Shown here: positions 4,280 to 43,581 of the stretch, one piece after another
How positions within the stretch are numbered: position 1 is the first letter of the stretch
Layout: each line of letters begins with the position of its first letter
Source of the DNA: a virus
DNA length: 43,581 bases
Reading direction: 5' to 3' (one strand)
IMG/VR virus record: IMGVR_UViG_3300005337_000028
Span: 1-43,581 of that record
Translations under genes and position numbers: made by a program
Notes under the pieces: generated by a model
The model's input: only the letters and a program-made list of their open reading frames with translations
Told to the model about the DNA's origin: nothing
Database searches by the model: none

Positions 4280-4561
4280 ATGAACTTCCTCGCATTGCTG
4301 ATGCAATACCTGCCGACCGTACTTGGTGTCGTGCAAACTGTCGAAACCATCTCGAACACGATGGCGAAGAAGCCGTCCGGCAAGGAAAAACTTGCAGCGG
4401 CTGTCGGCATGATTTCTGCTGTGGCTCCGGCGCTGAATGAATCGCTGTCGAATCAGGCGCCGAACGCCACGCACACCGAAAACGTCGTCAATGGAGTCGT
4501 TGCCATGGTCAATGCGCTTGGTGGCTTTGCGGATCAGCAGGATGCAGGAAGCGGCGCCTAA
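4280..4561 (+). CDS. Small protein with hydrophobic N-terminus at the end of the lysis cassette
   Basis: 93 aa with AAGGAG a few bases before the ATG. The first ~25 residues are hydrophobic (MNFLALLMQYLPTVLGVVQT), then a Lys-rich stretch (KKPSGKEK), then another Ala/Val-rich helical segment. It might be a small membrane-active protein, such as a second holin or antiholin, but I recognise no family. It is the last gene of the rightward late unit; its stop TAA overlaps the stop of the oppositely oriented Rieske gene by 4 bases, leaving no room for a terminator between them. Confidence 0.7.
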   Translation: MNFLALLMQYLPTVLGVVQTVETISNTMAKKPSGKEKLAAAVGMISAVAPALNESLSNQAPNATHTENVVNGVVAMVNALGGFADQQDAGSGA

Positions 4562-5517
4562 GTCGCATGCCAACCGGAGTCAAACGTACCGGTTGACTCC
4601 CTGAACCACCGCACGCGCTCCTCGTCCGTAGACAGCGCGTGCCCCCAGCCTTTCACGCGCGAGCATATTTCGGCGTCCTGCTGAAACACCATATGGTTGA
4701 ACGTACGCGCCTCCTCGTAGAACCATTTCATGTTTGGCGCATCGTGGCGCTGGCTGCCTGTGTACAGCCTGGACGTGAACGAAGTCCAGCCGCCAGACGG
4801 CAGGTAATGTTGTAGCGAGTACGTGAATCCGCCCAGCGATGACAGGCACGCGTAGGGGCTCAGGTACAGGTGGAAATATTCGTTCGGCTTGACGTTGCTG
4901 AATGACTTCGACAGCCGGTCCGTAAGCTCCAGCGTGCGCTTGTCCGTGATTTCGTATAGCGCGATGGAATGAGGCCCTTCACGCTGCATGTCGATGCGCT
5001 TGAGATTAACCTTGCCGAACGTATCGCGGTGCACCGTGGGAATGTGCATGTCCTCCAGCGTGTTCTCGATAGCCACGCGCCAGTCGCACGACATGGGAAA
5101 CGCATCGACCGAATGCCGCTTGTTGATCTTGATGGATTCCAGTATCGAACGGATGTTTCCCTCTGGCACCGGATAGCCGAGTTCGCCAGTTGACGCGAAC
5201 AGCCAGTCACCGACCCAGCATGTCATGTACTGATGGAACTTGGCTTTTTCTAGTTCGGCTTCGCTATAGTTCTCGCGGCATGGTACATTGGTCTGCCCAT
5301 TGCGGAATGACCAGCCGTGATAGGGACACGTCATTGGCGCGTTGCCGTGGTTGTCTTTGAAAATCTGTGTGCCGCGATGAGGGCACAGACCGTCAGTTAC
5401 GACGATATTTCCACCGTCTTTGTAGGCAACCATTTCGCTGCCGTCTATCGGGATGCGGATGTAATCGCCTGGATTTGCGAAATCTGAGCGGTGCCCGATT
5501 AGAAGCCAGTTATTCAT
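4558..5517 (-). CDS. Rieske non-heme iron oxygenase, alpha-subunit type
   Basis: 319 aa from the chosen ATG at 5517, which has AAGG nine bases upstream; an ATG two codons earlier (5523) and a TTG at 5535 are alternatives. The Rieske [2Fe-2S] cluster ligands are C45/H47 (CPHRG) and C64/H67 (CPYHGW). The catalytic domain shows the mononuclear iron site ENTLEDMHIPTVH, with D156 in the usual bridging position, H158 and H163 as ligands and D281 as the probable third ligand. The family uses O2 and electrons to hydroxylate, demethylate or desaturate small molecules. No ferredoxin or reductase gene is present, so host electron donors would be needed. It is the last gene of the metabolic cluster and is coupled to the 31-aa membrane microprotein. 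Substrate unknown. Confidence 0.93.
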   Translation of the reverse strand: MNNWLLIGHRSDFANPGDYIRIPIDGSEMVAYKDGGNIVVTDGLCPHRGTQIFKDNHGNAPMTCPYHGWSFRNGQTNVPCRENYSEAELEKAKFHQYMTCWVGDWLFASTGELGYPVPEGNIRSILESIKINKRHSVDAFPMSCDWRVAIENTLEDMHIPTVHRDTFGKVNLKRIDMQREGPHSIALYEITDKRTLELTDRLSKSFSNVKPNEYFHLYLSPYACLSSLGGFTYSLQHYLPSGGWTSFTSRLYTGSQRHDAPNMKWFYEEARTFNHMVFQQDAEICSRVKGWGHALSTDEERVRWFRESTGTFDSGWHAT

Positions 5518-5605
5518 CTTCATTGTCCTTATCAATAAAACACATCAAAACCATCATGCCGAATATCGCGAACAGAAGTCCTACGATAATCCAGCCGGAA
5601 CTCAT
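5510..5605 (-). CDS. 31-aa single-span membrane microprotein
   Basis: A small open frame whose ATG overlaps the stop of the acyltransferase gene (ATGA at 5605-5602) and whose TAA overlaps the Rieske gene start by 8 bases. It encodes a short N-terminus (MSSGW), one strongly hydrophobic span of about 19 residues (IIVGLLFAIFGMMVLMCFI) and an acidic tail (DKDNEDE). The overlaps on both sides and the clear membrane-segment composition support real translation. It might anchor or regulate an enzyme of the cluster, or simply keep ribosomes coupled to the Rieske gene. No family recognised. Confidence 0.6.
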   Translation of the reverse strand: MSSGWIIVGLLFAIFGMMVLMCFIDKDNEDE

Positions 5606-6204
5606 AATCGTTTTGCAGCCGGTGCGTACATCGTTGCGCCTGCGGGTACGTCTTTCACGATGACCGCGCCCGCTCCTATTCGTGCCCATGAGCCAATCTT
5701 CACGCCCGGCAAAACGCGCGCACCCGAACCGAAGAAAACGCCTTCTCCGACCTCGACGTTGCCGCAGATATCGACGTGCGAGGAGAGAGTGCAGTAGTCG
5801 CCCATCTTCACGTCATGGCCTACGGTAGCGTGCAGGTTTAGGTGGCAGAACTTGCCGACTTGCGCGTTGCTCGATATGACGGAGTACGGGCAGGTAATCG
5901 AGCCGATGCCGATTTTTCCGGTGGGTGGGCCGATGTTGAAAAGCATCGAATGGAATGTAGCGCCTCGCTTCGCTAGCCGAATGGCAACATTTTTGCGTCC
6001 GCTCGGATCGGCAATTGCAACCAGAACTTGCTCTCCCATCCTGTGTTCGTGCATGTCGATGGGTTCGCAATGAATATCCTCATCTGCTAAGAATTGATTC
6101 ACCGTGACGCCGCGAGTGCCAAGCCATGCAGCGATTTCCTTTGCGAAACCACCATGCCCTGCAATGATTACTTTGATTGGATTATTGAGCACTATATGCA
6201 CCAT
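5602..6204 (-). CDS. NeuD/PglD-like sugar acyltransferase (left-handed beta-helix)
   Basis: 200 aa from an ATG at 6204 that overlaps the SDR gene by 23 bases. The N-terminal Rossmann-like part begins IIAGHGGFAKEIAAW, as in the NeuD/PglD family. The C-terminal half is a run of hexapeptide repeats (for example CGNVEVGEGVFFGSGARV) that build a left-handed beta-helix binding an acyl-CoA. The sequence ATVGHDVKMGDYC holds the His-Asp pair (H130, D131) at the position of the catalytic base of these enzymes. Family members transfer acetyl groups to amino sugars or sialic acids. Here the neighbouring acyl carrier protein suggests that the donor may be another acyl group; that is inference. Confidence 0.9.
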   Translation of the reverse strand: MVHIVLNNPIKVIIAGHGGFAKEIAAWLGTRGVTVNQFLADEDIHCEPIDMHEHRMGEQVLVAIADPSGRKNVAIRLAKRGATFHSMLFNIGPPTGKIGIGSITCPYSVISSNAQVGKFCHLNLHATVGHDVKMGDYCTLSSHVDICGNVEVGEGVFFGSGARVLPGVKIGSWARIGAGAVIVKDVPAGATMYAPAAKRL

Positions 6205-6796
6205 CCACGGTAAGGATTGACCCGGTTGACCAGTCATTTTCGAGCAGGAACCGGATGGCCTGCACGATATGCTGCGGTTCGCCCATGCCGAGAGGATGTT
6301 TTGCGGCGTACTTCTCCGCGCCAGCCGCACCGATCTTCGCGGCGATCCTATCATTCATCGCGCCGGAGAATCCGCCTGCGCGGATGGCGTTAACACGGAT
6401 TTTCTTCGGCGCAAGTTCGATAGCGGCAGAGCGCACCATCGCTTCTGTTGCGCCCTTGGCCGCTGAATAGAGCGACATGCCGGGCACGCCGCAGACCGCA
6501 GCTACAGACGACATGGCGATGATTGAGCCATCTTCGCGGACCTTGCCGATGGAGGCTCGCGCAAGAATCTGCATCAACATTGTCACAGAACGAAAGGACA
6601 TATCGAAGCGCTCTGGCGATGCTAGTCCGAGTGGTGCAAGTATCTCCTTACCAGCCAAATGAATGACAGCATCGAACTCACCATCCGGCATTATCGGGTC
6701 TTCGTGCAGCCACCCCACAATCTCATGCTCTTTGTGCAGTGCCGCATAAATATGCATTCCGAGAGAGCCGCTTAGACCGGTTACGAGATATTTCAT
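6182..6796 (-). CDS. Short-chain dehydrogenase/reductase (FabG-like)
   Basis: 204 aa; the ATG at 6796 overlaps the KAS III stop (ATGA). NAD(P)-binding motif TGLSGSLG at residues 6-13, HLAG in place of the usual NNAG at 46-49, catalytic Ser in MSSVAA (S96/S97) and the YxxxK pair Y110/K114. It is shorter than typical 240-250-aa SDRs because of a compact region between residues 20 and 50. Lying between KAS III and the acyltransferase in an ACP-containing operon, it probably reduces a 3-oxoacyl-ACP to the 3-hydroxyacyl form, though sugar substrates are possible. Confidence 0.9.
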   Translation of the reverse strand: MKYLVTGLSGSLGMHIYAALHKEHEIVGWLHEDPIMPDGEFDAVIHLAGKEILAPLGLASPERFDMSFRSVTMLMQILARASIGKVREDGSIIAMSSVAAVCGVPGMSLYSAAKGATEAMVRSAAIELAPKKIRVNAIRAGGFSGAMNDRIAAKIGAAGAEKYAAKHPLGMGEPQHIVQAIRFLLENDWSTGSILTVDGAYSAQ

Positions 6797-7683
6797 GCGC
6801 CCTCCACAACTTTGCAAACCTTGAGCGGCCCGATGCCCATAACCGTAGCGCCCCATGACCATCCGGCACCAAATCCGACGAGACAGCATGCGACATGCCG
6901 CTTCAGCAATTCCGGCGTGATGCTCGAATCGCACATGAGTAGTGGGATCGACGCGCTGGAAGTATTTCCGTACTTCGCAATGTTCATCGGCATTTGATCG
7001 AGCGGAATGCTGCATTTTTTTGCCAAGTGCTTCAGTATCATTTCGTTTGCCTGATGAAATAGGAATGCTTCTACGTAGCGATCAGCGGTCGTAAATTCAA
7101 CCAGAGGCGGCACTGTGCGCAGTGCGAACGTCATGACCTCAGCGCCGTTCATGCGAATCTTCGGATCGGCGATCAGTTTGTCGTGACCGCTGCCGTCCGT
7201 GCCTAGTGCGAAATCATCGCGGTGCTTGGAGACGATGCCAGTGGCGGTCACGCAGTCACCGAACAGCATACCGGTCGGTTTGTCCCATAGCTCGACCATC
7301 TTGCTAACGGTATCACCGACGATCAGCAGGACATTTCCTTGTCCGGCGAATTTGTCCGCAATCGCCATACCGTATACGTACCCGCTGCATGCCATGTTCA
7401 CGTCGAATGCCGGACACTTGCAGCCGATCATGTCTGCGATGATGGCCGCGTTTCCTGGCATCGCGTTAGCTGGCGTTTGCGTAACGACGATGATTGCTGT
7501 GATGGAAGATGGCAGCCAGTGGAGTTCGCGCATCAACTCAATGGCAGCCATGTATCCGAGGTCTACGCTGTCCTGATCGATAGTTGCGACGCGGCGTTCT
7601 TTGATTCCAGTTGCCTTGACGAATGTTTCGTCCTCGTTGACAACGCGATTTGCTGGTACTGCGGCGACGATTCCGGCAATCAT
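6793..7683 (-). CDS. KAS III-like condensing enzyme (3-oxoacyl-ACP synthase III family)
   Basis: 296 aa, ATG overlapping the ACP stop. The thiolase-fold triad is complete: Cys99 in DVNMACSGYVYG, His210 in FLFHQAN and Asn240 in YGNTSSASIP. KAS III enzymes condense an acyl-CoA primer with malonyl-ACP to start an acyl chain. It is slightly shorter than the usual ~320 aa; the region between the first strand and the TGIKERR motif is reduced. The order ACP, KAS III, SDR in one coupled operon is that of a minimal acyl-building set. It may instead be one of the KAS III homologues that transfer acyl groups to other acceptors. Confidence 0.93.
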   Translation of the reverse strand: MIAGIVAAVPANRVVNEDETFVKATGIKERRVATIDQDSVDLGYMAAIELMRELHWLPSSITAIIVVTQTPANAMPGNAAIIADMIGCKCPAFDVNMACSGYVYGMAIADKFAGQGNVLLIVGDTVSKMVELWDKPTGMLFGDCVTATGIVSKHRDDFALGTDGSGHDKLIADPKIRMNGAEVMTFALRTVPPLVEFTTADRYVEAFLFHQANEMILKHLAKKCSIPLDQMPMNIAKYGNTSSASIPLLMCDSSITPELLKRHVACCLVGFGAGWSWGATVMGIGPLKVCKVVEGA

Positions 7684-7898
7684 AGAGCCGCCAGCCGTAG
7701 CACGTCACTAACCGTCTTGCACTCGGATACAGCGCTCCCGTTAACCACCTTGCCAGTCAGTTCATCGATGACGGCGATGGTGGCGATGTGGCAGAGCGAG
7801 TCCCACGGATCGAGGATTGTTTCCTCCGTGATCCCGTCGATTGGCTTGTCTAGCACGTCCGTTGCCAGCGTGTGCATCAGTAGTTCACGACTGCTCAT
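7680..7898 (-). CDS. Acyl carrier protein
   Basis: 72 aa. The phosphopantetheine attachment motif DSL is at residues 33-35 with Ser34 as the modified residue, in WDSLCHIATIAVIDE, the start of the characteristic helix II. Overall it is an acidic four-helix-type small protein. The ATG lies 14 bases inside the end of the glycosyltransferase gene, with GAGGAGAAAC upstream. It would carry the growing acyl chain for the KAS III and SDR encoded next to it, after activation by a host phosphopantetheinyl transferase; none is encoded here. Confidence 0.9.
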   Translation of the reverse strand: MSSRELLMHTLATDVLDKPIDGITEETILDPWDSLCHIATIAVIDELTGKVVNGSAVSECKTVSDVLRLAAL

Positions 7899-9708
7899 TC
7901 AGTTTCTCCTCGTACAGTTGCTCGAAGGCCGCTAGAAATTTTCCTTGGACTGCGGGCCATCCTTCACCGAAAAACTCATAATCCGTTGACATAATAGGGA
8001 TGAAATTGAAATCACCGGATTTAATAATTTCTACGGCCCCGTTAATAAATGACTTCACGTTTTGATGAATCAATCCCCCGCGTAAAAACTTCATCCGCCG
8101 AATCATCGAAGCATCCGACCTCTGGTGAATCTCATCCCCTTCCAGGGTAACAACCGGCACGCCATACAAAAAGCAGTCGATGATGCTATTCGTGCCACCG
8201 AACGGGAACGTAGACAGCGCGAGTTTGCACGAAGCCAGATTGTCGATGTACTCCTGATATGAGGAGCGAGGATGGACTACGCAATCTGGGAACCAGCGAT
8301 GCAAGTCCTTTGCGCAGACGTAGTGCGCCAAGCTTACTTGATTTGGGAAGAAATGGTATTCCACATTCTGGCAAGCCGACTTGATTTCCTTGAGAGCGGA
8401 TAAAAATGGCGGAATGATTTTGACGGCCATTGCCGGGATAGCGACACGGAGAACGGATCGAGCATCCGCGCCCATCGGTACAGGTACGGTGACGCCTTCG
8501 CGCGGAATATACCTTGCCGCCCCGACCGGAAGGCCAACGAGTCGTTCAGAATAGCGGTCTTGAACTCCGAACAAGTCTTCTTCACACGCCATGTAATCCA
8601 TGACGTTCGAGAATGTCGAGGCAGGGTGCCCAGGGCAGCAAACCTGTATCGGCGCCATCCTGATATTGGAAAGCGCGACGTACCAAGCGGCCATCCCAAC
8701 ACTCGGGTAGAACATAATATCCGGTTCTTCCGCATGAATTACCTCCATAATCGTTGAAATAGCTACCGCATCGCCGGGCAGCTTCACGCACTTATCGAAT
8801 ACCGCCATGCCGCCTTCATCTATCTCGGTATCACGGTAGATGCAGACGAGCCGAAAGCGTTCCTTGAGTTGTCGCATGCTAGGCGCATAGCAGCGAAACA
8901 TGGCGTGATGCGAGCCGAACCACTCGACAGGGACAACGATGGTAGGACGCTCCTTCCGAACGAGTTTGCGCGTGCATTCCCGCACTTCGGTACGCGAAAA
9001 CGCCAAGTCGCGCATCCATGTATTCACTATTTTTTTTGCTTCGTGCTTGTCTGGCGCATCCGTATACGTGCAGTGCATGTACAAGTCGCCAGCGCACAGC
9101 AGGAGCGCGTCAGGCAGCGGATGCGCGCACAGGATATGCCGTAGTGACATAAGATGCAGACGCCGCTTGTAGGCGCGCTCCGTATGAGTGACGCCGATTG
9201 CCAGCATGCCGATGATTGCGGCGTGAGTCGCTTCCGGTGCTGCTGCGTAGAGTACGTCGAAATCAACCTCGACTTCGGATTCTAGCGACCAGCAAAGGAG
9301 CAATTGCGCGATGGTATTTGCCGCGAACTGCATTTGTAATGGCTCATCTGCCGGTCGCGTGCCGATGGTGCTTAGAACATGATCCATCGTCTCGTAGGAG
9401 GATGCGCGGAATATCGAATGCAGCGTGGTGTGTTCGGCGCACAGCCTCACGAATCCGTCAGCGCTGATGAAAAACTTCGGATCGGTGAACAGTGACGTGA
9501 CCGCGCCAGCCAATCGCGTGTGCAGGATGCGCAATTGATCCTCGGTGCAGCCGAAGAATCCGGAGCCTTTGCGGATTCGCTGTAGGATGCCGTAAAGCTC
9601 TCTGGCGCATGCCTCGAAACTCTCCGGCGATCCGTCGCGCAGGTAGACTACGCGCTCGAATGGTTCGAGGTTCAGGGATTCTACGGGGGTGCCTGCGGGT
9701 TCAGTCAT
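7885..9708 (-). CDS. HMW1C/OGT-like glycosyltransferase (GT41 family)
   Basis: 607 aa. The N-terminal ~260 residues are all-helical, like the alpha domain of HMW1C-type enzymes or degenerate TPRs. The GT-B catalytic region contains MAPIQVCCPGHPASTFS (G360-H-P), matching the HMW1C/SPINDLY pattern before the donor site, and NSIIDCFLYGVPVVTLEGDE at about 507-526 followed by HQRSDASMIRR, matching the UDP-sugar-binding part. HMW1C enzymes add hexoses to Asn of adhesins in the cytoplasm; OGT relatives modify Ser/Thr. The target here is unknown: a host flagellin or adhesin, a phage virion protein or the ACP-linked product are all possible. Its ATG overlaps the upstream dioxygenase stop. Confidence 0.88.
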   Translation of the reverse strand: MTEPAGTPVESLNLEPFERVVYLRDGSPESFEACARELYGILQRIRKGSGFFGCTEDQLRILHTRLAGAVTSLFTDPKFFISADGFVRLCAEHTTLHSIFRASSYETMDHVLSTIGTRPADEPLQMQFAANTIAQLLLCWSLESEVEVDFDVLYAAAPEATHAAIIGMLAIGVTHTERAYKRRLHLMSLRHILCAHPLPDALLLCAGDLYMHCTYTDAPDKHEAKKIVNTWMRDLAFSRTEVRECTRKLVRKERPTIVVPVEWFGSHHAMFRCYAPSMRQLKERFRLVCIYRDTEIDEGGMAVFDKCVKLPGDAVAISTIMEVIHAEEPDIMFYPSVGMAAWYVALSNIRMAPIQVCCPGHPASTFSNVMDYMACEEDLFGVQDRYSERLVGLPVGAARYIPREGVTVPVPMGADARSVLRVAIPAMAVKIIPPFLSALKEIKSACQNVEYHFFPNQVSLAHYVCAKDLHRWFPDCVVHPRSSYQEYIDNLASCKLALSTFPFGGTNSIIDCFLYGVPVVTLEGDEIHQRSDASMIRRMKFLRGGLIHQNVKSFINGAVEIIKSGDFNFIPIMSTDYEFFGEGWPAVQGKFLAAFEQLYEEKLNEQS

Positions 9709-10430
9709 TTTTTGTCCAGTTGTTCCTGCAATTCTTTGAGCCTTGAAGTCCGCGAGCGGATGAACATGTTAGCGCGTTGCTCATCCTGAATATGATCGTT
9801 CGTTTTCCAAGTTCCGCGCATCAACTTTTTCCCGCTCGGATCGTCGGCAGGCTGGTAGATGATGTCGGTAAGAACGCGGTCTGGACCTTCTGTGTGCGCG
9901 TATGAACCGTGCCAGCATGCGGAGTGCATGAGCAGAACATCACCAGGATGCATGTCGATGGCATTGAGCCATTGGTTAGGGCCAAGCACCTCAGGATTCA
10001 ATTCGCCAGCATCCCCGAGATACCCCCATACATGGGTGGCACGGCGCAAATATAAACCTCCGTTTTCCATCTTTGATTCACTGAGTGCCACGAATGCCGA
10101 CAGTTTGCGGGGCCAGCCAATGTGATACGGCGTGTCCTGATGCAAAAACACGGCATCACGCGACTTCGCATCCTTGACCACGAACCGCTGATTGTAGAGC
10201 GCGATGTTCGGTCCGAATACCTCCTCCACGGCATCGAGAATGGACGGATGACGCGCGATCAGGGACAGTAGCGGCTGCATGCGATCATCGTTTATTGCGA
10301 TAGGATTGAACTCTGGAACACGATTCGGATCGGCTAACGATGCGTAGAGTGCCGCCCATGCGCTGACGGTATCGGAGTCGATCAGGCGACGGTGCAGCAA
10401 GTAGCCGTTTTGTTCGAATTCGTTGTTCAT
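9705..10430 (-). CDS. Phytanoyl-CoA dioxygenase-family Fe(II)/2-oxoglutarate oxygenase
   Basis: 241 aa from the ATG at 10430, which overlaps the stop of the small membrane gene upstream (ATGA). The double-stranded beta-helix iron site is visible: HxD at H97/D99 (FLHQDTPYH), the distal His in SACWHGSYAH (H174) and an Arg at R185 expected to bind 2-oxoglutarate. These enzymes hydroxylate aliphatic or acyl substrates. With the Rieske enzyme it gives the cluster two unrelated oxygenases. Substrate unknown; an acyl-ACP or a sugar/lipid moiety is plausible from context. Confidence 0.9.
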   Translation of the reverse strand: MNNEFEQNGYLLHRRLIDSDTVSAWAALYASLADPNRVPEFNPIAINDDRMQPLLSLIARHPSILDAVEEVFGPNIALYNQRFVVKDAKSRDAVFLHQDTPYHIGWPRKLSAFVALSESKMENGGLYLRRATHVWGYLGDAGELNPEVLGPNQWLNAIDMHPGDVLLMHSACWHGSYAHTEGPDRVLTDIIYQPADDPSGKKLMRGTWKTNDHIQDEQRANMFIRSRTSRLKELQEQLDKK

Positions 10431-10621
10431 TTGATAATCCCGGTAAGAGGATGCGGATGCTTCTTTCCATAGAAAGTGAGACCAATGCAAAGCACCGGAA
10501 TAATGAACAGATGAATCTCCCATTTCCAGTTCAACCATCCGTCCTTAAACGATTGATACCCAAAAAACCAAGTTGGGCATATCCACAGCGAAACATAGCG
10601 GGTACGAAATATCTTGATCAC
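10427..10621 (-). CDS. Small aromatic-rich membrane protein in the metabolic cluster
   Basis: 64 aa if translation starts at the GTG at 10621, which overlaps the methyltransferase stop (GTGA) and has AGGTGG five bases upstream; another GTG three codons earlier is possible. It is Trp/Phe-rich, with one clear membrane span near the C-terminus (HLFIIPVLCIGLTFYG) and possibly a second weaker one (VSLWICPTWFFGY). It ends in a His/Pro-rich tail. No family recognised. Overlaps on both sides tie it to the cluster. Confidence 0.65.
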   Translation of the reverse strand: MIKIFRTRYVSLWICPTWFFGYQSFKDGWLNWKWEIHLFIIPVLCIGLTFYGKKHPHPLTGIIK

Positions 10622-11175
10622 ACGATCCACCTAAATGTAGAAGTAACCTCATCGTCGGTTACATTTTTTTCTTTGTTGCAGTGCGCAATCCAAGAATAGT
10701 GTATGGGACACAAAAACCGATCCGACTCCAATATGTCAATCTGCAAGTCATCCCAATCGCGCATCAGCACTTTTATTCCATGCTCGGTGAATCGCCAGCA
10801 GTCGTTCGCGGGACCGTGGATACGTGCGTTGAATGGCGTCGATGCTACGAGCATCCCGCCCGGCTTCAGAACGCGTCGAATCTCTTTGATCGCGGCAAAC
10901 GGATCGAGTGCATGTTCGAGGACTTCGAGACACAGAACGGCATCGTAGAAACTGTTCGACAGCGGAGTTCGCTTCGTAATGTCGTATTGATACGTGCAAC
11001 CAGGAACAATGTCGAGCGTGTGCCATGTCGTATCGCCCTTGCGCATATGTGATTGCGGACCGATTTCTAGAACAGTAGCGCTCGCGGGTAAATGGAATAA
11101 CTTGGCGCGCGCGTTTTCGATATGTTCGCGTGCCATTTTCATGTAACGGTCGTCTATTGCGCTAACTTTTTTCAT
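10618..11175 (-). CDS. Class I SAM-dependent methyltransferase
   Basis: 185 aa from the ATG at 11175 (ATGA overlap with the 24-aa peptide before it). Motif I is VLEIGP at residues 35-40, an acidic residue after strand 2 is D55, and YDAVLCLEVLEHALDPFAAI at about 77-96 plus RVLKPGGMLVASTPF are the UbiE/Methyltransf_11-type motifs. These enzymes methylate small molecules or sugars with S-adenosylmethionine. As the first enzyme of the cluster it probably methylates the glycan, acyl or sugar product; a protein target is not excluded. Confidence 0.9.
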   Translation of the reverse strand: MKKVSAIDDRYMKMAREHIENARAKLFHLPASATVLEIGPQSHMRKGDTTWHTLDIVPGCTYQYDITKRTPLSNSFYDAVLCLEVLEHALDPFAAIKEIRRVLKPGGMLVASTPFNARIHGPANDCWRFTEHGIKVLMRDWDDLQIDILESDRFLCPIHYSWIAHCNKEKNVTDDEVTSTFRWIV

Positions 11176-11246
11176 TCCCTCATCCCCGGCAGTTCCTCGC
11201 AAAACGCGAGTAAGTCCAAAATGTCTGCGATTAGTGCGCGGATCAC
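11172..11246 (-). CDS. 24-aa coupling peptide ahead of the methyltransferase
   Basis: A GTG-started frame whose start overlaps the stop of the upstream 153-aa gene (GTGA, 11246-11243) and whose TGA overlaps the methyltransferase ATG (ATGA, 11175-11172). GGGAGAG stands six bases before the GTG. The peptide is a short amphipathic helix-like sequence (IRALIADILDLLAFCEE). It may be a real microprotein or mainly a device to keep ribosomes moving into the metabolic cluster. Confidence 0.45.
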   Translation of the reverse strand: MIRALIADILDLLAFCEELPGMRE

Positions 11247-18299: not shown

Positions 18300-18479
18300 A
18301 TGAATACTCAAACCATTATCCGAAAACTGCGCGCCTCTCCTCTGCCAAAGGAGAAAATAGCCGTTCAGGCTGGTGTGTCCTATAGCTGGCTAACAAAGTT
18401 TCTTCTAGACAAGATGAAGCACCCGCGTGAATCATCGCTAGAGAAGCTACGGGCTTATTTGAGGGAGGCGAGCAAATGA
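18300..18479 (+). CDS. Small helix-turn-helix transcription regulator
   Basis: 59 aa, MNTQTIIRKLRAS..., ending at the TGA that overlaps the next ATG. Residues about 17-42 form a helix-turn-helix (KEKIAVQAGVSYSWLTKFLL), and the C-terminus (SSLEKLRAYLREA) resembles the end of a Cro/C1-type domain. It lies directly at the divergent promoter region and probably binds the palindromes there, controlling the two early units. It lacks the oligomerisation domain of a full CI repressor, so it is Cro-like in size. Start chosen because the promoter places the transcript start at this ATG. Confidence 0.7.
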   Translation: MNTQTIIRKLRASPLPKEKIAVQAGVSYSWLTKFLLDKMKHPRESSLEKLRAYLREASK

Positions 18480-19618: not shown

Positions 19619-19821
19619 AAACTACGATGTACTTAGCTGATGGTCGAGTGATCGAGCGAGAGCCTCCCGAGACTATCGAGCAGTTTTTCGAGCAGTCAGC
19701 GGCTTGGCTGAAGCGCTACCCAAGCGGCAAACCACCCGATCCGGACAGCGATAGGCGATTCCTTGAGGTCATGCAGCGGGAGCCTTGGAAGTCGTTTAGG
19801 AAGGCTCAGAATGTCGGTTGA
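19615..19821 (+). CDS. Hypothetical early protein
   Basis: 68 aa from a GTG at 19615 that overlaps the previous stop (GTGA) and has GGGAGG a few bases upstream. Contains MYLADGRVIEREPPETIEQFFEQSA; acidic, helical C-terminus rich in Arg and Asp. No family recognised. The primase zinc-finger gene starts inside its end. Confidence 0.68.
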   Translation: MKTTMYLADGRVIEREPPETIEQFFEQSAAWLKRYPSGKPPDPDSDRRFLEVMQREPWKSFRKAQNVG

Positions 19822-20242
19822 AGCGCTGCTATCCAGGCTAGAGCACGTCAGACCGAACGGTAAGGGACGCTGGCGATCCTGTTGCCCGGCTCATGGTGGC
19901 AAGAACCGTAGCGCGCTGTCTATTTACGAGACTCCGGACGGCGCAGTGTTATTGCATTGCCATGTGATGGGCTGCGCTGTAGGCGATATAGCGGGCGCTG
20001 TGGGCGTAGACCTATCCGAGCTATTCCCGCCACGCGCGGACGCTGCAACAGGCTCCAAACCGATTGCTAGACCGTGGCCTTCGCGCGTGGTATTGGAGGC
20101 GCTACACATGGACATCCGCGTTGCATTTTCACTGTTCGATAATCTTGCAAAGAGCAAGCCTACCGAAATTACAGCAGAGCGCGCGAAGGAATACAAGACG
20201 CGCATGCTGCATTTGATTAACGAGCTTGACCGCTCATACTAA
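19811..20242 (+). CDS. Primase-type zinc-finger protein (split primase component)
   Basis: 143 aa from the ATG at 19811, overlapping the previous gene by 11 bases. Residues about 8-75 are a CHC2-like primase zinc finger: RWRSCCPAHGGKNRSALSI (C25, H28), VLLHCHVMGCAVGDI (C50, C55), then the following helix DLSELFPP. The second half (about 95-143) is helical. No TOPRIM or helicase domain follows; those parts are in a separate gene at 21352, giving a split primase-helicase. The zinc finger would recognise the priming site. Confidence 0.82.
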   Translation: MSVEALLSRLEHVRPNGKGRWRSCCPAHGGKNRSALSIYETPDGAVLLHCHVMGCAVGDIAGAVGVDLSELFPPRADAATGSKPIARPWPSRVVLEALHMDIRVAFSLFDNLAKSKPTEITAERAKEYKTRMLHLINELDRSY

Positions 20243-21351: not shown

Positions 21352-22842
21352 ATGTCCGCTGTACTCAGGGAGACTCCGCAAGAGCTATTGGGCGCCGATG
21401 CACTGCGCGCCAATCCCAATGCTCCTGTCATGGTGTGCGCCGATCTGCGCGCGCTGCAATACGCCGACAAGTTAGCAGGCAATATTTACGCCTGTGTGAC
21501 ATGGCATGGTGATTGGCGAAACTACGATTGGTTAGCGCTCACTGATAGAAAAATCTTAGTCTGGTGCGAGGTCTGGCCGCTAGCCGTGCATCTGGCGAGC
21601 AATACGGACAACACGACGAAGATACTGCCGACCGATGTAACGCCCGAGGATTTCGAGGATTACGAGGCGTTCAAGGCTTGGGCTAGGGAGAATGTACGGG
21701 AGTTGACGCGGGAGAATGCCATCAGCGAGCAAGCCAGGATGGATTCAATGCCGCCAGAACCGCCAATAGAGGCTTACGAGGAGGTCCGTGAGATAGCCGA
21801 GACCAAACCCACGGCCACTTACCAAGAGCGCCTTCCAGCCCTCGATTTCGCGGATTACGTCAATTCTTTCGAGTCGCCTGACTACCTGATCGATGGGCTG
21901 CTGATTTCCAGTCGGGTTTACGCGCTGACAGCACTGACTGGACACTGCAAGACTGCCATCGCTACCTACATGGGATTGGCTGTCGCATGCGGTCAGAAGT
22001 TCTCCGGCAGGGATACCGTTGCCAAGCGCGTCCTGTATTTATCCGGGGAAAATGACGAGGATCAGAAGGCCAGAACCATCGCCACATCAACCGAGTTCGG
22101 ATTGCTGCCTGGAATAGGCCAATTTCGCGTCAGAGCCGGTGCGCAAGGCATCGGCAGCCTCATCCCTGAGCTAGACATAGAGTTCGAGGAAAACGGCCCA
22201 TACGGGCTTGTGGTGGTTGATACGAGCGCCGCATTCTTCGGTGGATCGGACGAAATTGACAATGTAGAAGCCAAGCACCACGCCCAGTTCTTCCGCGACA
22301 TAAGCCGGATGCCTGGAAATCCTACCGTTTTGGTGCTTTGCCACCCAACCAAGGCAGCAGGCAAGGATTCCCTATTGCCACGCGGTGGCGGCGCCTTCCT
22401 AAACGATATTGACGGCAACCTGACTGCCTTTCTGCAAGGCGAGCGCGTCACCATGCACCGCTTGGGCAAGTTCCGTGGCCCACCTTTCGAGCCGATGGAC
22501 TTTGCAGTAAAGCCCGTTATCCTCAAGAATTACAAGGATGCCAAGGGTCGTCCCGTCGAGTCCGTAGTCGTTACGCCCATGACAGATTATGACGTTGTCA
22601 AGGCCGAGCATGCTGAGTGGACCGACGAGAACAAACTGATGTACGAAATGCTCCACCATCCGAACAGCAGTTTCACGGACTGGGCAGAAGCGTGTGGATG
22701 GCGTGACAAGAACGGCAACGCGCTCAAGTCAAAGGTTTCCAGGCTGATTGCCGACCTCCATGCCGACAAGCTGGTGGAGAAGGAGCGCAAGAAGTGGATT
22801 TTGACCAACGCTGGCCGGAAGGCTGCTGCCAGCATTACCTAA
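21352..22842 (+). CDS. RepA-type replicative helicase with degenerate TOPRIM-like N-terminus
   Basis: 496 aa. Residues about 24-85 look like an eroded TOPRIM domain: PVMVCADLRALQYADKL stands where active primases have CEGEKAA, and KILVWCEVWP where they have WPDND, so the catalytic acids are missing. Residues about 175-400 are a RepA/DnaB-type ATPase with an altered P-loop (A194-L-T-G-H-C-K200-T201 instead of G....GK), VLYLSGEND, and Walker B VVVD290. The C-terminus (about 415-496) is a winged-helix-like domain (LMYEMLHHPN...KLVEKERKKWILTNAG). It probably unwinds DNA at the origin next to it, together with the free zinc-finger protein. Confidence 0.85.
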   Translation: MSAVLRETPQELLGADALRANPNAPVMVCADLRALQYADKLAGNIYACVTWHGDWRNYDWLALTDRKILVWCEVWPLAVHLASNTDNTTKILPTDVTPEDFEDYEAFKAWARENVRELTRENAISEQARMDSMPPEPPIEAYEEVREIAETKPTATYQERLPALDFADYVNSFESPDYLIDGLLISSRVYALTALTGHCKTAIATYMGLAVACGQKFSGRDTVAKRVLYLSGENDEDQKARTIATSTEFGLLPGIGQFRVRAGAQGIGSLIPELDIEFEENGPYGLVVVDTSAAFFGGSDEIDNVEAKHHAQFFRDISRMPGNPTVLVLCHPTKAAGKDSLLPRGGGAFLNDIDGNLTAFLQGERVTMHRLGKFRGPPFEPMDFAVKPVILKNYKDAKGRPVESVVVTPMTDYDVVKAEHAEWTDENKLMYEMLHHPNSSFTDWAEACGWRDKNGNALKSKVSRLIADLHADKLVEKERKKWILTNAGRKAAASIT

Positions 22843-22852
22843 GGAGCAACAC

Positions 22853-23038
22853 ATGACCAAGCCTGAATACCTCGATGCTGCGGCGCTTGCAGCCTTAACC
22901 GGCATCCTAGCTCGTGAAAGCAACGAGGAGTCAACCATCGGCGCAAGCGGGAGGCTGAATCGCCATCAGATGATAGCCAAGGAAGCCTATGACATTGCGC
23001 AGTACATGCTGATCGAGAGAGACAAGCGCCATCCGTAA
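22853..23038 (+). CDS. Small protein after the helicase
   Basis: 61 aa, AAGGAGC before the ATG. Helical, mildly acidic (YLDAAALAALTGILARES, HQMIAKEAYDIAQYMLIERD). Directly precedes the repeat-rich candidate origin and is the last gene of the rightward early unit. No family recognised. Confidence 0.68.
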   Translation: MTKPEYLDAAALAALTGILARESNEESTIGASGRLNRHQMIAKEAYDIAQYMLIERDKRHP

Positions 23039-23112
23039 TAAAGCACCAAATCAGTGCGAAACGCCTGCTTAGTTCTGTCGTTCCCCCCCGTACCCCCCTT
23101 AAATACGGAAAT

Positions 23113-23270
23113 CGTTCCAGGTCACTATCGTTCCTGGACGATTCCGCTTTGGAACGGTGCATGTATATGATTATATTAAGTTAATTGGAAAATCGTTCCA
23201 AATCGTTCCACCGGAACGGCTGGAACGTTCCTTGGAACGGAGGGGTGTTTCTGGAACGACTTTTGGAACG
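23113..23270. repeat. GGAACG/CGTTCC iteron-like array, candidate replication origin
   Basis: Eleven copies of a 6-base word lie in 158 bases: CGTTCC at 23113, 23129, 23194, 23204 and 23226, and GGAACG at 23151, 23213, 23222, 23234, 23253 and 23265. Most read TGGAACG or CGTTCCA, and several are spaced 9-12 bases apart. GGAACGTTCC at 23222-23231 is a full palindrome. A very AT-rich stretch (about 23160-23190) sits between two groups of sites. Repeats plus an AT-rich unwinding-type segment just after the helicase gene are what a phage origin looks like. Confidence 0.6.
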
Positions 23271-23832
23271 ATTTGTTACTACATTTAAACTGAGTTTTAT
23301 CCGGGTAATAATGTGGAATATTGAACGTGTTCATTTATGCAGCGGGGATCGGTGTTGCATGCCTCCTAGCGCTCTCATTTCACATTGTGAAATGTCGTCC
23401 AAGCGACAATTGGATGGCGCGCTCGGATCGTGGTCCAAGTAGTCCGTGTTGCCTTGCATCCGAACCTCGCCACGCTCGGCAGTTATTCCAGGCACCATTA
23501 GGCACTAGCGGTAGTGTGGTGTGCAGGCGATAATGCGCACTTTAGTGTGCCATGCTCGCAAGTGCCTGATTACAATGGGTTGTTGCAATGCGGCGAATTT
23601 AACATAATGGGTATTATCGTTCATTCAGTTCGTAAGTGCTTACTAACTATGTGGTTGTCATAAACGAATCGGACGGCCTCGCGCGTGCAACCGGTTGGGT
23701 CGGAATCGAAATGGGTCCGGCCCCCGCCTCGGTCGAGGCACCCAACTCTCCCCTCCCCCACCAAAAAAAAGAAAAGTCGCGCGCGCCGAAAAAATTTGAT
23801 ATTCTGCGGGAATTCCTTGCAGGGAGTTGACC
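23271..23832. other. Gene-poor region after the repeat array
   Basis: I see no convincing gene here. Visible structure includes a perfect palindrome ATTTCAC-ATT-GTGAAAT (23377-23393) and AGGCAC at 23490 and 23500, one helical turn apart, with its inverse GTGCCT at 23562. An imperfect inverted repeat GCGCAC...GTGTGC lies near 23536-23550. A GTG-started frame (23636-23830, ending in KKFDILREFLAGS) and a hydrophobic frame near 23321 are possible but lack Shine-Dalgarno sites and read poorly. The region may belong to the origin or hold regulatory sites. Confidence 0.5.
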
Positions 23833-24000
23833 ATGCCGAATTCAGGATGGGTTCCAGATGAGCGCAAGCGTTCTCCGTTCGAGACTGATGCGCAATACGA
23901 CAAGCGCATGAAGGAATTGGACGAACGGGAGAAGCTGTGGCGCGGGTTCTATGAAAGTCTGCCGGTTCGCCGTACCGGTTTTCTAGGGAAGGTAGATTAG
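23833..24000 (+). CDS. 55-aa charged protein
   Basis: ATG at 23833 with AGGGAG six bases upstream; ends at TAG at 24000. The peptide is highly charged (PDERKRSPFETDA, KRMKELDEREKLW) and probably helical in the middle. No known family. It stands at the start of the short block before the terminator at 24726. Confidence 0.6.
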   Translation: MPNSGWVPDERKRSPFETDAQYDKRMKELDEREKLWRGFYESLPVRRTGFLGKVD

Positions 24001-24085
24001 CCATGCCGCCAATCGCCCAAGTTACCGGCCCGCTCTCCTCCGAAATCCCCAATGGAAATGGAGTACATTACTATTTCTGGCGGCA

Positions 24086-24343
24086 TTGCTATTCTGGATG
24101 CCGAGGCCGGTCCAGGCGTGGCCGCGTATCACGATATTTTTCGTAGCCGATCCTGCTGTTGAATGTTTCAACACGCGTCCGACTTACCCGGCGAACGGTT
24201 GCTACGTGAACGGCGGCGATAAGGGATTTCTGATATACATCCGCGATGACATGAGCCTGCCGAAAACGCTGTGCGTGATTAGCCACGAACTAAAGCACGT
24301 CGAGCGCGGGAATTTTCACGAAGGGCCGGATGATTCGTGTTAG
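24086..24343 (+). CDS. Exported HExxH protein, start uncertain
   Basis: 85 aa if the TTG at 24086 is used. The C-terminal half has the zinc-binding motif HELKH (SHELKHVERGNFH) typical of small secreted phage or conjugative proteins with a metalloprotease-like site. The frame stays open upstream to a TAG at 23993 and encodes what looks like a signal peptide (WSTLLFLAALLF...PVQA, cleavage after VQA). Most of that segment is upstream of the first ATG/GTG/TTG. So either a CTG at 24077 is the start, or the gene carries a frameshift. Two Cys residues in the mature part could form a disulfide. Function unknown. Confidence 0.6.
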   Translation: MLFWMPRPVQAWPRITIFFVADPAVECFNTRPTYPANGCYVNGGDKGFLIYIRDDMSLPKTLCVISHELKHVERGNFHEGPDDSC

Positions 24344-42993: not shown

Positions 42994-43581
42994 TGGATCA
43001 ACTCGCTCCCGGCGCTGCCGATATCGTAGGCGCAAACCCGCTGCCCCTGCTGCCGGGTGCGGGCGGCATGCGCACGGCTACCGCTGGACCAGGGCCGGGG
43101 CCGATTGCGCCGCCGATGGTAGGCGATCCCCCGATGGCTGGGGGCGCCATTGCTGGCGGCATGCCTCCGCAGTTTGCCGTGCAGATGGCGGCAGAGCAGG
43201 CGAAGAAGGATGCCGCCCTTAAAACCATCCAAAATGCTGCATCGCAGCGAGATATTGCGCAGGCACCGATTGCAGAGCGCATGAAGGAGGTTCCGAAGCC
43301 TGCCGATCCGGTCTACACAAAATTACCGGAAGCGCCGCGTTCGCTGCCGATGTCGCCGCAGGAAATGAGCGACTTCACATCTACCATGTTCGCGCTGTCC
43401 GTGATTGGTGGCGCGATGACGCGCACGCCAATGGCAACGGCGATGAACGCGTTTTCTAGCGCGCTGAAAGGTTTGCAGGAAGGCGATGCCGAACGCTTCA
43501 AGCGTGACTCGGCTGCGTTCAAGCAAAACATGGACGCGACGGTAGCGAAGAATCAACTCGCGCATCAGGAGTACACCGACG
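42993..43581 (+). CDS. Internal/ejection-type virion protein, N-terminal part (continues at base 2)
   Basis: ATG at 42993, sharing one base with the stop of the 570-aa gene. The frame stays open to the end of the window and continues in the same phase at base 2 (the last 110 bases repeat the first 110); the whole protein is about 531 aa. The part here has a flexible Gly/Pro/Met-rich N-terminus (GPGPGPIAPPMVGDPPMAGG pattern), then a helical Lys/Ala-rich stretch, then SPQEMSDFTSTMFALSVIGGAM, which might cross a membrane. Confidence 0.78.
   Translation, partial: MDQLAPGAADIVGANPLPLLPGAGGMRTATAGPGPGPIAPPMVGDPPMAGGAIAGGMPPQFAVQMAAEQAKKDAALKTIQNAASQRDIAQAPIAERMKEVPKPADPVYTKLPEAPRSLPMSPQEMSDFTSTMFALSVIGGAMTRTPMATAMNAFSSALKGLQEGDAERFKRDSAAFKQNMDATVAKNQLAHQEYTD
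43472..43581. repeat. Terminal direct repeat, right copy
   Basis: Identical to bases 1-110. The internal virion protein gene stays in frame across the junction, confirming circular closure of the contig. Confidence 0.95.

Follow-up and report, generated by a model that had tools for sequence, protein, structure and literature searches.

A GGAACG iteron array 3' of a RecA-fold helicase gene in uncultured phages: a probable replication origin, inferred to be read by the helicase's own winged helix

Results

Genes and Repeats at the Helicase Locus

The window, i.e., the whole 43,581-bp stretch of viral DNA analyzed here, carries the same 110-bp direct repeat at both record ends (1-110 and 43472-43581), so that the genome is probably complete and either circular or terminally redundant. 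The genes that matter most for what follows are:

19763..20242, plus strand: primase-type zinc-finger protein (PHROG DNA primase N-terminal match, E 1.9e-7)
21352..22842, plus strand: replicative helicase of 496 aa, with a RecA-fold AAA_25 core at about residues 158-410 and a C-terminal winged helix
22853..23038, plus strand: small ORF of 61 aa with AGGAG upstream, between the helicase gene and the array

The zinc-finger protein may be the priming partner. For the small ORF no Pfam or PHROG match was obtained, and Rfam gave no match within 22800-24200. No DNA polymerase gene was recognized among the window ORFs that were read or scanned, which makes the host polymerase the likely partner. On the minus strand, 4558-11200 holds a metabolic or envelope-like cassette, unusual cargo for a phage, in which a Rieske-type oxygenase, an acyltransferase, a short-chain dehydrogenase, a ketoacyl-synthase-III-like protein, a carrier protein, a dioxygenase, and a methyltransferase were assigned by eye only.

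Downstream of the helicase gene the following elements are found:

23079..23270, no strand: iteron array with 12 exact GGAACG copies (longer form TGGAACGATT); matching array at L001:7290-7488
23151, 23213, 23222, 23234, 23253, 23265: iteron starts, plus strand
23079, 23113, 23129, 23194, 23204, 23226: iteron starts, minus strand
23106..23146, plus strand: bulged stem-loop containing iterons (DNA fold z -4.3; L001 counterpart z -4.9)
23157..23193, no strand: AT-rich core (78% AT; window 44%) between the left and right iteron groups
23190..23274, no strand: dense right-hand iteron group with the palindrome GGAACGTTCC at 23222-23231 (fold z -6.9)

A preliminary description of this DNA had proposed an iteron-like replication origin from eleven copies of GGAACG/CGTTCC in both orientations within 158 bases, a 10-base palindrome, copies on both sides of an AT-rich stretch, and the absence of coding sequence. 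All of these features are borne out: the eleven copies lie in 23113-23270 and a twelfth can be added at 23079, the palindrome is present, 23157-23193 is the window's highest-AT 37 bp, and no convincing coding sequence overlaps the array. Other details need correction. The array was thought to follow the helicase gene directly, but the 61-aa ORF intervenes and the first copy lies 237 bp past the helicase stop; the spacing in the second group, given as an even 9-12 bases, measures 4-19 bp. The GC-skew switch suggested as a check on the origin has its minimum near 18 kb, at the gene-strand switch and away from the array, and thus lends no support to an origin.

The window holds 37 copies of GGAACG/CGTTCC in total, 12 of them within 23079-23270. 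CGTTCC is its most clustered 6-mer, with 12 copies per 192 bp where unrelated 6-mers reach at most 5, and when the full 43.6 kb was shuffled 300 times with dinucleotides preserved, the richest 192-bp stretch held 4. The left group is sparse (23079, 23113, 23129, and 23151), and a perfect 13-bp inverted repeat (23190-23202 / 23262-23274) encloses the right group at 23194-23270. Shuffles as stable as the stem-loop at 23106-23146 or as its L001 counterpart were not obtained (0/200 in each). The AT-rich core is a probable unwinding element.

The Same Array in a Distant Phage

Querying viral contigs with the helicase of the window recovered L001 alone, at 55% identity across 330 residues. On the 3' side of the L001 helicase gene lie 11 exact copies, ordered much as in the window, together with a C-rich tract, a bulged hairpin, an AT-rich gap, two close CGTTCC copies, and a palindrome; both arrays close with a final pair ending in TTTTGGAACG. 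On alignment, the window and L001 hairpins have the bulged shape in common and the stem is altered on both sides. Elsewhere in this contig (L001:8081-8300), 12-bp units occur in tandem within an unknown protein-coding region.

Arrays Throughout the Helicase Family

Two further searches were made. In the DNA-only scan, IMG/VR was searched for CGTTCCA-N(0-25)-CGTTCCA-N(0-25)-TGGAACG without any protein information entering the selection; 95 stretches were retrieved, and in about ten unrelated groups a homologue of the window helicase is encoded immediately before the array. With the motif reversed, 20 stretches were retrieved, 5 of them with at least 6 copies, vs 95 with the real motif, where 62/93 loci reach that number; this is only a rough control because the CpG content of the reversed motif differs. 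From an earlier paired-iteron pattern, which had given 5 loci, L006, L007, and L010 were discarded as single chance pairs.

For the protein-only search, helicase relatives were collected from viral contigs and bacterial genomes and merged at 85% identity, leaving 128 helicases, and an array was called if a 6-mer in the 450 bp past the stop was repeated more than in at least 95 of 100 shuffles. A significant repeated 6-mer was found 3' of the helicase gene in 105 of 127 testable relatives, 96 of which beat all 100 shuffles, and no significant array lies within 450 bp of the stop in the other 22/127. The same test was positive near the nominal 5% in control regions, namely the gene's last 450 bp (8/128) and the upstream region (6/117). 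An earlier pass over 85 loci had given 68/85 in the 3' region, 9/85 at the gene end, and 1/78 upstream. The preliminary description had named, as one outcome that would disprove the origin, close relatives with the replication genes but without the repeat; the opposite is observed, since about 83% carry an array with a lineage-specific motif, and these arrays 3' of the helicase gene throughout the family support the origin proposal, although origin activity itself is inferred.

The sites occur in both orientations at 102/104 loci, and spacings of 8-13 bp are the most frequent across 104 relatives. Median values are 18.5 bp for the distance from the helicase stop to the first site and 202 bp for the length of the array. 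The AT-richest stretch falls at the array in 34/101 relatives vs 6.2 expected, that is, in only about a third. Motif variants include GGAACG, TGAACG, GATACG, GGTACG, GCTACG, GTTACG, GAAACG, and GGGACA, as well as GGGTCA, CGCACG, TGCACG, and CGGACA, and others exist. Relatives of the HTH protein at 18300, of the zinc-finger protein at 19763, and of the 61-aa ORF occur at 0-1 of 104 array loci, and none of the window's replication-region proteins other than the helicase is common to these loci.

Most loci of the family are metagenomic. In our searches its members came exclusively from uncultured phages and from contigs of bacterial genomes, among them Bradyrhizobium, Mesorhizobium, Methylocystis, and Burkholderiales. 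Searches of 50,697 GenBank phage records by blastn and tblastn with few queries gave no close relatives; only distant AAA_25 parts (25-29%), mostly of actinophage primase-helicases, were found in GenBank phages, and nothing in plasmids. One strain, Bradyrhizobium sp. MOS002, has three contigs with helicase relatives (L185, L186, and L188).

Further Arrays and Stem-Loops

GGAACG arrays are also situated beside DUF3987, PrimPol-D5, CHC2, AEP, and DUF1376 proteins, in none of which the winged-helix profile detects the domain described below. At L008:4259-4475 and L049:4428-4642, TGGAACG arrays lie 3' of an unrelated DUF3987 helicase, and a protein search from this pair recovered only those two. 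Helices KKAKGQMHRKLQKAI and KKKSTMQRTLKKAI at the C-terminus of the DUF3987 helicase resemble KSKVxR, and the reading module of L008 and L049 may be shared or convergent; their GGAACG arrays hint that such a module may be portable. Another group of 31 contigs of about 58% GC (L102, L096, L014, L041, and 27 related loci) contains an intergenic TGGAACG/TGTTCCA array with a 40-bp repeat unit and a terminase gene nearby.

Long stem-loops, often C-rich and then G-rich, recur in the 450 bp 3' of the helicase gene; their loops read CTTA(G), TTTAG, or CTAAA, and few have an obvious T-tract. The element occurs in 21/105 3' regions (L025, L109, L134, L128, L294, L284, L205, L292, L222, L306, L375, L182, and others), in none of the two gene control regions, and in 2/100 regions further downstream. 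Possibly these stem-loops are single-strand initiation (primase) sites. As a plain motif, a C-rich CCCCCYTAA element was weak (12/105 regions vs 3 shuffled) and was not retained.

A RepA-Like Motor With a C-Terminal Winged Helix

The following parts of the helicase are distinguished in the model:

22585..22839, plus strand: winged-helix domain, residues 412-496 (a1 412-435, a2 441-447, a3 459-471, wing 475-484)
22726..22764, plus strand: recognition helix a3, residues 459-471, KSKVSRLIADLHA, of which residues 459, 460, 463, and 464 covary with the iteron

The only family matched by the motor is Pfam AAA_25 (E 2.9e-18). In the AlphaFold2 model pLDDT is 93-98 across residues 161-490, and the top structural match of the core (161-410) is RSF1010 RepA (1g8y; Z 22.2, rmsd 2.5, 213 residues). 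The structures nearest to the motor are RSF1010 RepA and DnaB, Foldseek matches of the whole helicase are dominated by Rad51 and DnaB, and among PDB sequences RSF1010 RepA is the best replication-protein match. Judged from sequence and model, the helicase has a RecA-fold core of the RSF1010 RepA type; a hexameric ring and ATP-driven unwinding are only inferred from this likeness. Some longer relatives have a CHC2 zinc finger or a Toprim domain fused to the helicase.

Folded alone, the winged helix matches DNA-binding winged helices of the MntR/DtxR and MarR types (Z 9.5-11.8). Its structural matches include AspA of pNOB8, a centromere-binding winged-helix protein; an origin-binding domain of P4 alpha or SaPI is absent among the structural matches listed, which excludes nothing. 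The winged helix of one relative (L085:3-2030) has a weak Pfam match to HVO_A0261_N (E 4e-4), below the curated cut-off.

Covariation Between Iteron and Recognition Helix

When 324 alignment columns are ranked by excess mutual information with the motif, without phylogeny-aware coevolution statistics, S460, S463, K459, and R464 take the first four places. In the confidently modeled winged helix, these residues (i, i+1, i+4, and i+5) share one face of a3, at its N-terminal end. The motif caller used here and in the nearest-relative-pair and distant-pair tests favors the NNNACR frame; with frame-free motif calling, the 459/460/463/464 face ranks first of 225 faces (0.67 vs a median of 0.07).

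Kinship was controlled for with 45 disjoint nearest-relative pairs over about 320 columns. The column with the lowest p was R464 for base 1 (1e-5), S460 for base 2 (3.6e-5), and K459 for base 6 (6e-5); for base 3, A418 came first and S460 second (p 5.6e-4). At matched divergence the four helix residues differ in 20-31% of same-motif vs 63-66% of different-motif pairs, and the remaining winged-helix residues show little change with the motif. When distant pairs (<60% core identity) are identical at 459/460/463/464, their motifs are identical in 31/40 cases, and otherwise in 269/3700.

Individual bases can be assigned to individual residues, base 1 tracking residue 464, bases 2-3 tracking 460 and 463, and base 6 tracking 459. 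Arginine at 464 goes with G at base 1 in 61/71 cases, and lysine at 459 with G at base 6 in 64/69, R/S/T/V at this position being found mostly with A. Residue 463 pairs with base 3 as E-G (7/7), R-C (7/8), Q-T (19/25), and H/F/A/N-A (25/31), and acidic residues (E/D) at 463 go with G.

Discussion

Which Protein Reads the Array

The preliminary description left the binding protein undetermined and named the helicase, the HTH protein at 18300, and the zinc-finger protein (there placed at 19811) as candidates. The covariation of the iteron with the recognition helix answers this question in favor of the helicase; no relatives of the other two candidates were found at the other array loci. That the helicase itself is the binder is well supported, binding being inferred from covariation between sequences. 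In our judgment it is very probable that 23079-23275 is the replication origin or its initiator-binding core and that the adjacent helicase is the initiator; array and position, helix covariation, the AT-rich core with its family enrichment, and the RepA-like motor are observed, and binding and origin activity are inferred.

The alternative that survives best, although we consider it unlikely, is that the array, though bound by the winged helix, is an operator or a site of copy control (incompatibility) acting on the replication operon or on downstream genes, the origin lying elsewhere. Winged helices of this fold (MntR, DtxR, and MarR) are indeed mostly repressors, and promoter-like matches overlap or follow the array (23149-23177 and 23284-23312; 3 in the region vs 1.2 expected). 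However, nearly all relatives have the array on the 3' side of the helicase gene instead of at its promoter, upstream repeats being limited to 6/117, and about ten sites over some 200 bp together with an AT-rich core exceed what an operator needs.

There is very little room for binding by another protein, be it the HTH protein at 18300, the zinc-finger protein at 19763, the 61-aa ORF, or a host factor. Further candidate DNA-binding proteins are encoded near the helicase in the window, but almost none of the array loci elsewhere has a relative of these phage candidates (0-1 of 104), lineage-specific motifs would not be needed for a host factor, and the recognition helix of the helicase covaries with the motif above every other column. 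Equally improbable seems an array unrelated to replication start, i.e., a partition centromere, a packaging site, or a transposase-binding array. Partition sites also have clustered repeats, and AspA appears among the matches of the domain; the protein to which the reading domain is fused is, however, a replicative helicase and not one for partition, inspection of the ORFs read or scanned (without a dedicated search) revealed no ParA/ParB-like gene beside the array, and the terminase gene begins 3 kb from the array. A chance or low-complexity repeat can practically be ruled out by the copy number (12, where none of 300 shuffles exceeds 4), the place and order kept in L001, and the arrays in 105 relatives.

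A Proposed Mode of Initiation

If the array is an origin read by the helicase, initiation might proceed as follows. Helicase subunits would dock on GGAACG by their C-terminal winged helices, each inserting a3 into the major groove, as the strong covariation suggests. Sites in both orientations, many of them about one helical turn apart, could collect subunits for rings like those of RSF1010 RepA. The rings would presumably form beside or on the AT-rich core, which would melt, and might then unwind outwards, followed by primase and host polymerase. With the winged helix of the helicase inferred to read the array, a separate initiator protein would be unnecessary. Repeat and reading helix seem to have changed together in each lineage, which would keep replicons from cross-initiating.

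Comparison With Known Replication Systems

The iterons of RSF1010 are long direct repeats, unlike the 6-7 bp phage sites in both orientations. Similarities to RSF1010 consist in a core closest to RepA, in AT-rich and iteron elements, and possibly in hairpins acting as single-strand initiation sites. RSF1010 RepA (279 aa) ends roughly where the phage winged helix starts, the structural match ending at its residue 263-270. In RSF1010, RepC binds the iterons, RepA unwinds, and RepB' primes at ssiA/ssiB (PMC4234260). The plasmid thus has a separate iteron reader, whereas the phage reader is inferred to reside inside the helicase (without a name search for RepC in the window). Strictly defined iteron plasmid origins carry direct repeats, some 20 bp long and all in the same orientation, and the short two-orientation sites of the phage do not match them; in the broad sense of clustered repeats by the initiator gene together with AT-rich DNA the phage locus qualifies, with binding inferred.

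In SaPIs the origin follows rep on its 3' side and has iterons to either side of AT-rich DNA; the motors of P4 alpha and SaPI Rep belong to the SF3/D5-like helicase class. The phage helicase resembles these proteins in bearing a winged-helix domain on a helicase, as indicated by model, fold, and covariation (binding again being inferred), and differs from them in its motor, which is RecA-fold AAA_25 and not SF3. P4 alpha is a replicative helicase with a winged-helix origin-binding domain that reads origin repeats (PMC4234260). With an inferred origin reader of its own like P4 alpha but a motor of the RSF1010 RepA kind, the phage system is a variant and a member of neither.

pRN1 has in common with the phage a C-terminal winged helix and, if the array is the origin, an origin 3' of the gene: its replication helicase ORF904 carries such a domain, and the essential origin follows immediately on the 3' side (PMC4234260). 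ORF904 differs in being an archaeal primase-polymerase/helicase, and its origin is a stem-loop without iterons. In its inferred self-loading on short repeated sites, the phage helicase further resembles SV40 T antigen and papillomavirus E1, proteins of eukaryotic viruses. Both of these have an SF3 motor and an origin-binding fold unrelated to the phage winged helix. The ring helicase of SV40, large T antigen, recognizes four pentanucleotides by an origin-binding domain of its own and loads itself, with no need of a loader (PMC3401641). In the open-access literature we found no paper describing the present arrangement of helicase reader and array (subscription journals being mostly uncovered).

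Significance

We lean towards the broader view, with noticeably less assurance than for the locus itself, that these phages form a large undescribed replicon class in which a RecA-fold helicase initiates by itself, winged helix and iteron drifting together under a nearly residue-per-base code. What is proposed is a RepA/DnaB-like ring helicase recruited to its origin by a domain of its own, without a separate initiator. To our knowledge, phage origins are mostly unmapped, and arrays 3' of the helicase gene offer a sequence-only rule for locating origins in this helicase family. About 100 natural protein-DNA pairs, whose covariation is clear, constitute a data set for winged-helix specificity and for the joint change of initiator and origin. 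If the residue-per-base code is true, the origin sequence would be predictable from the protein.
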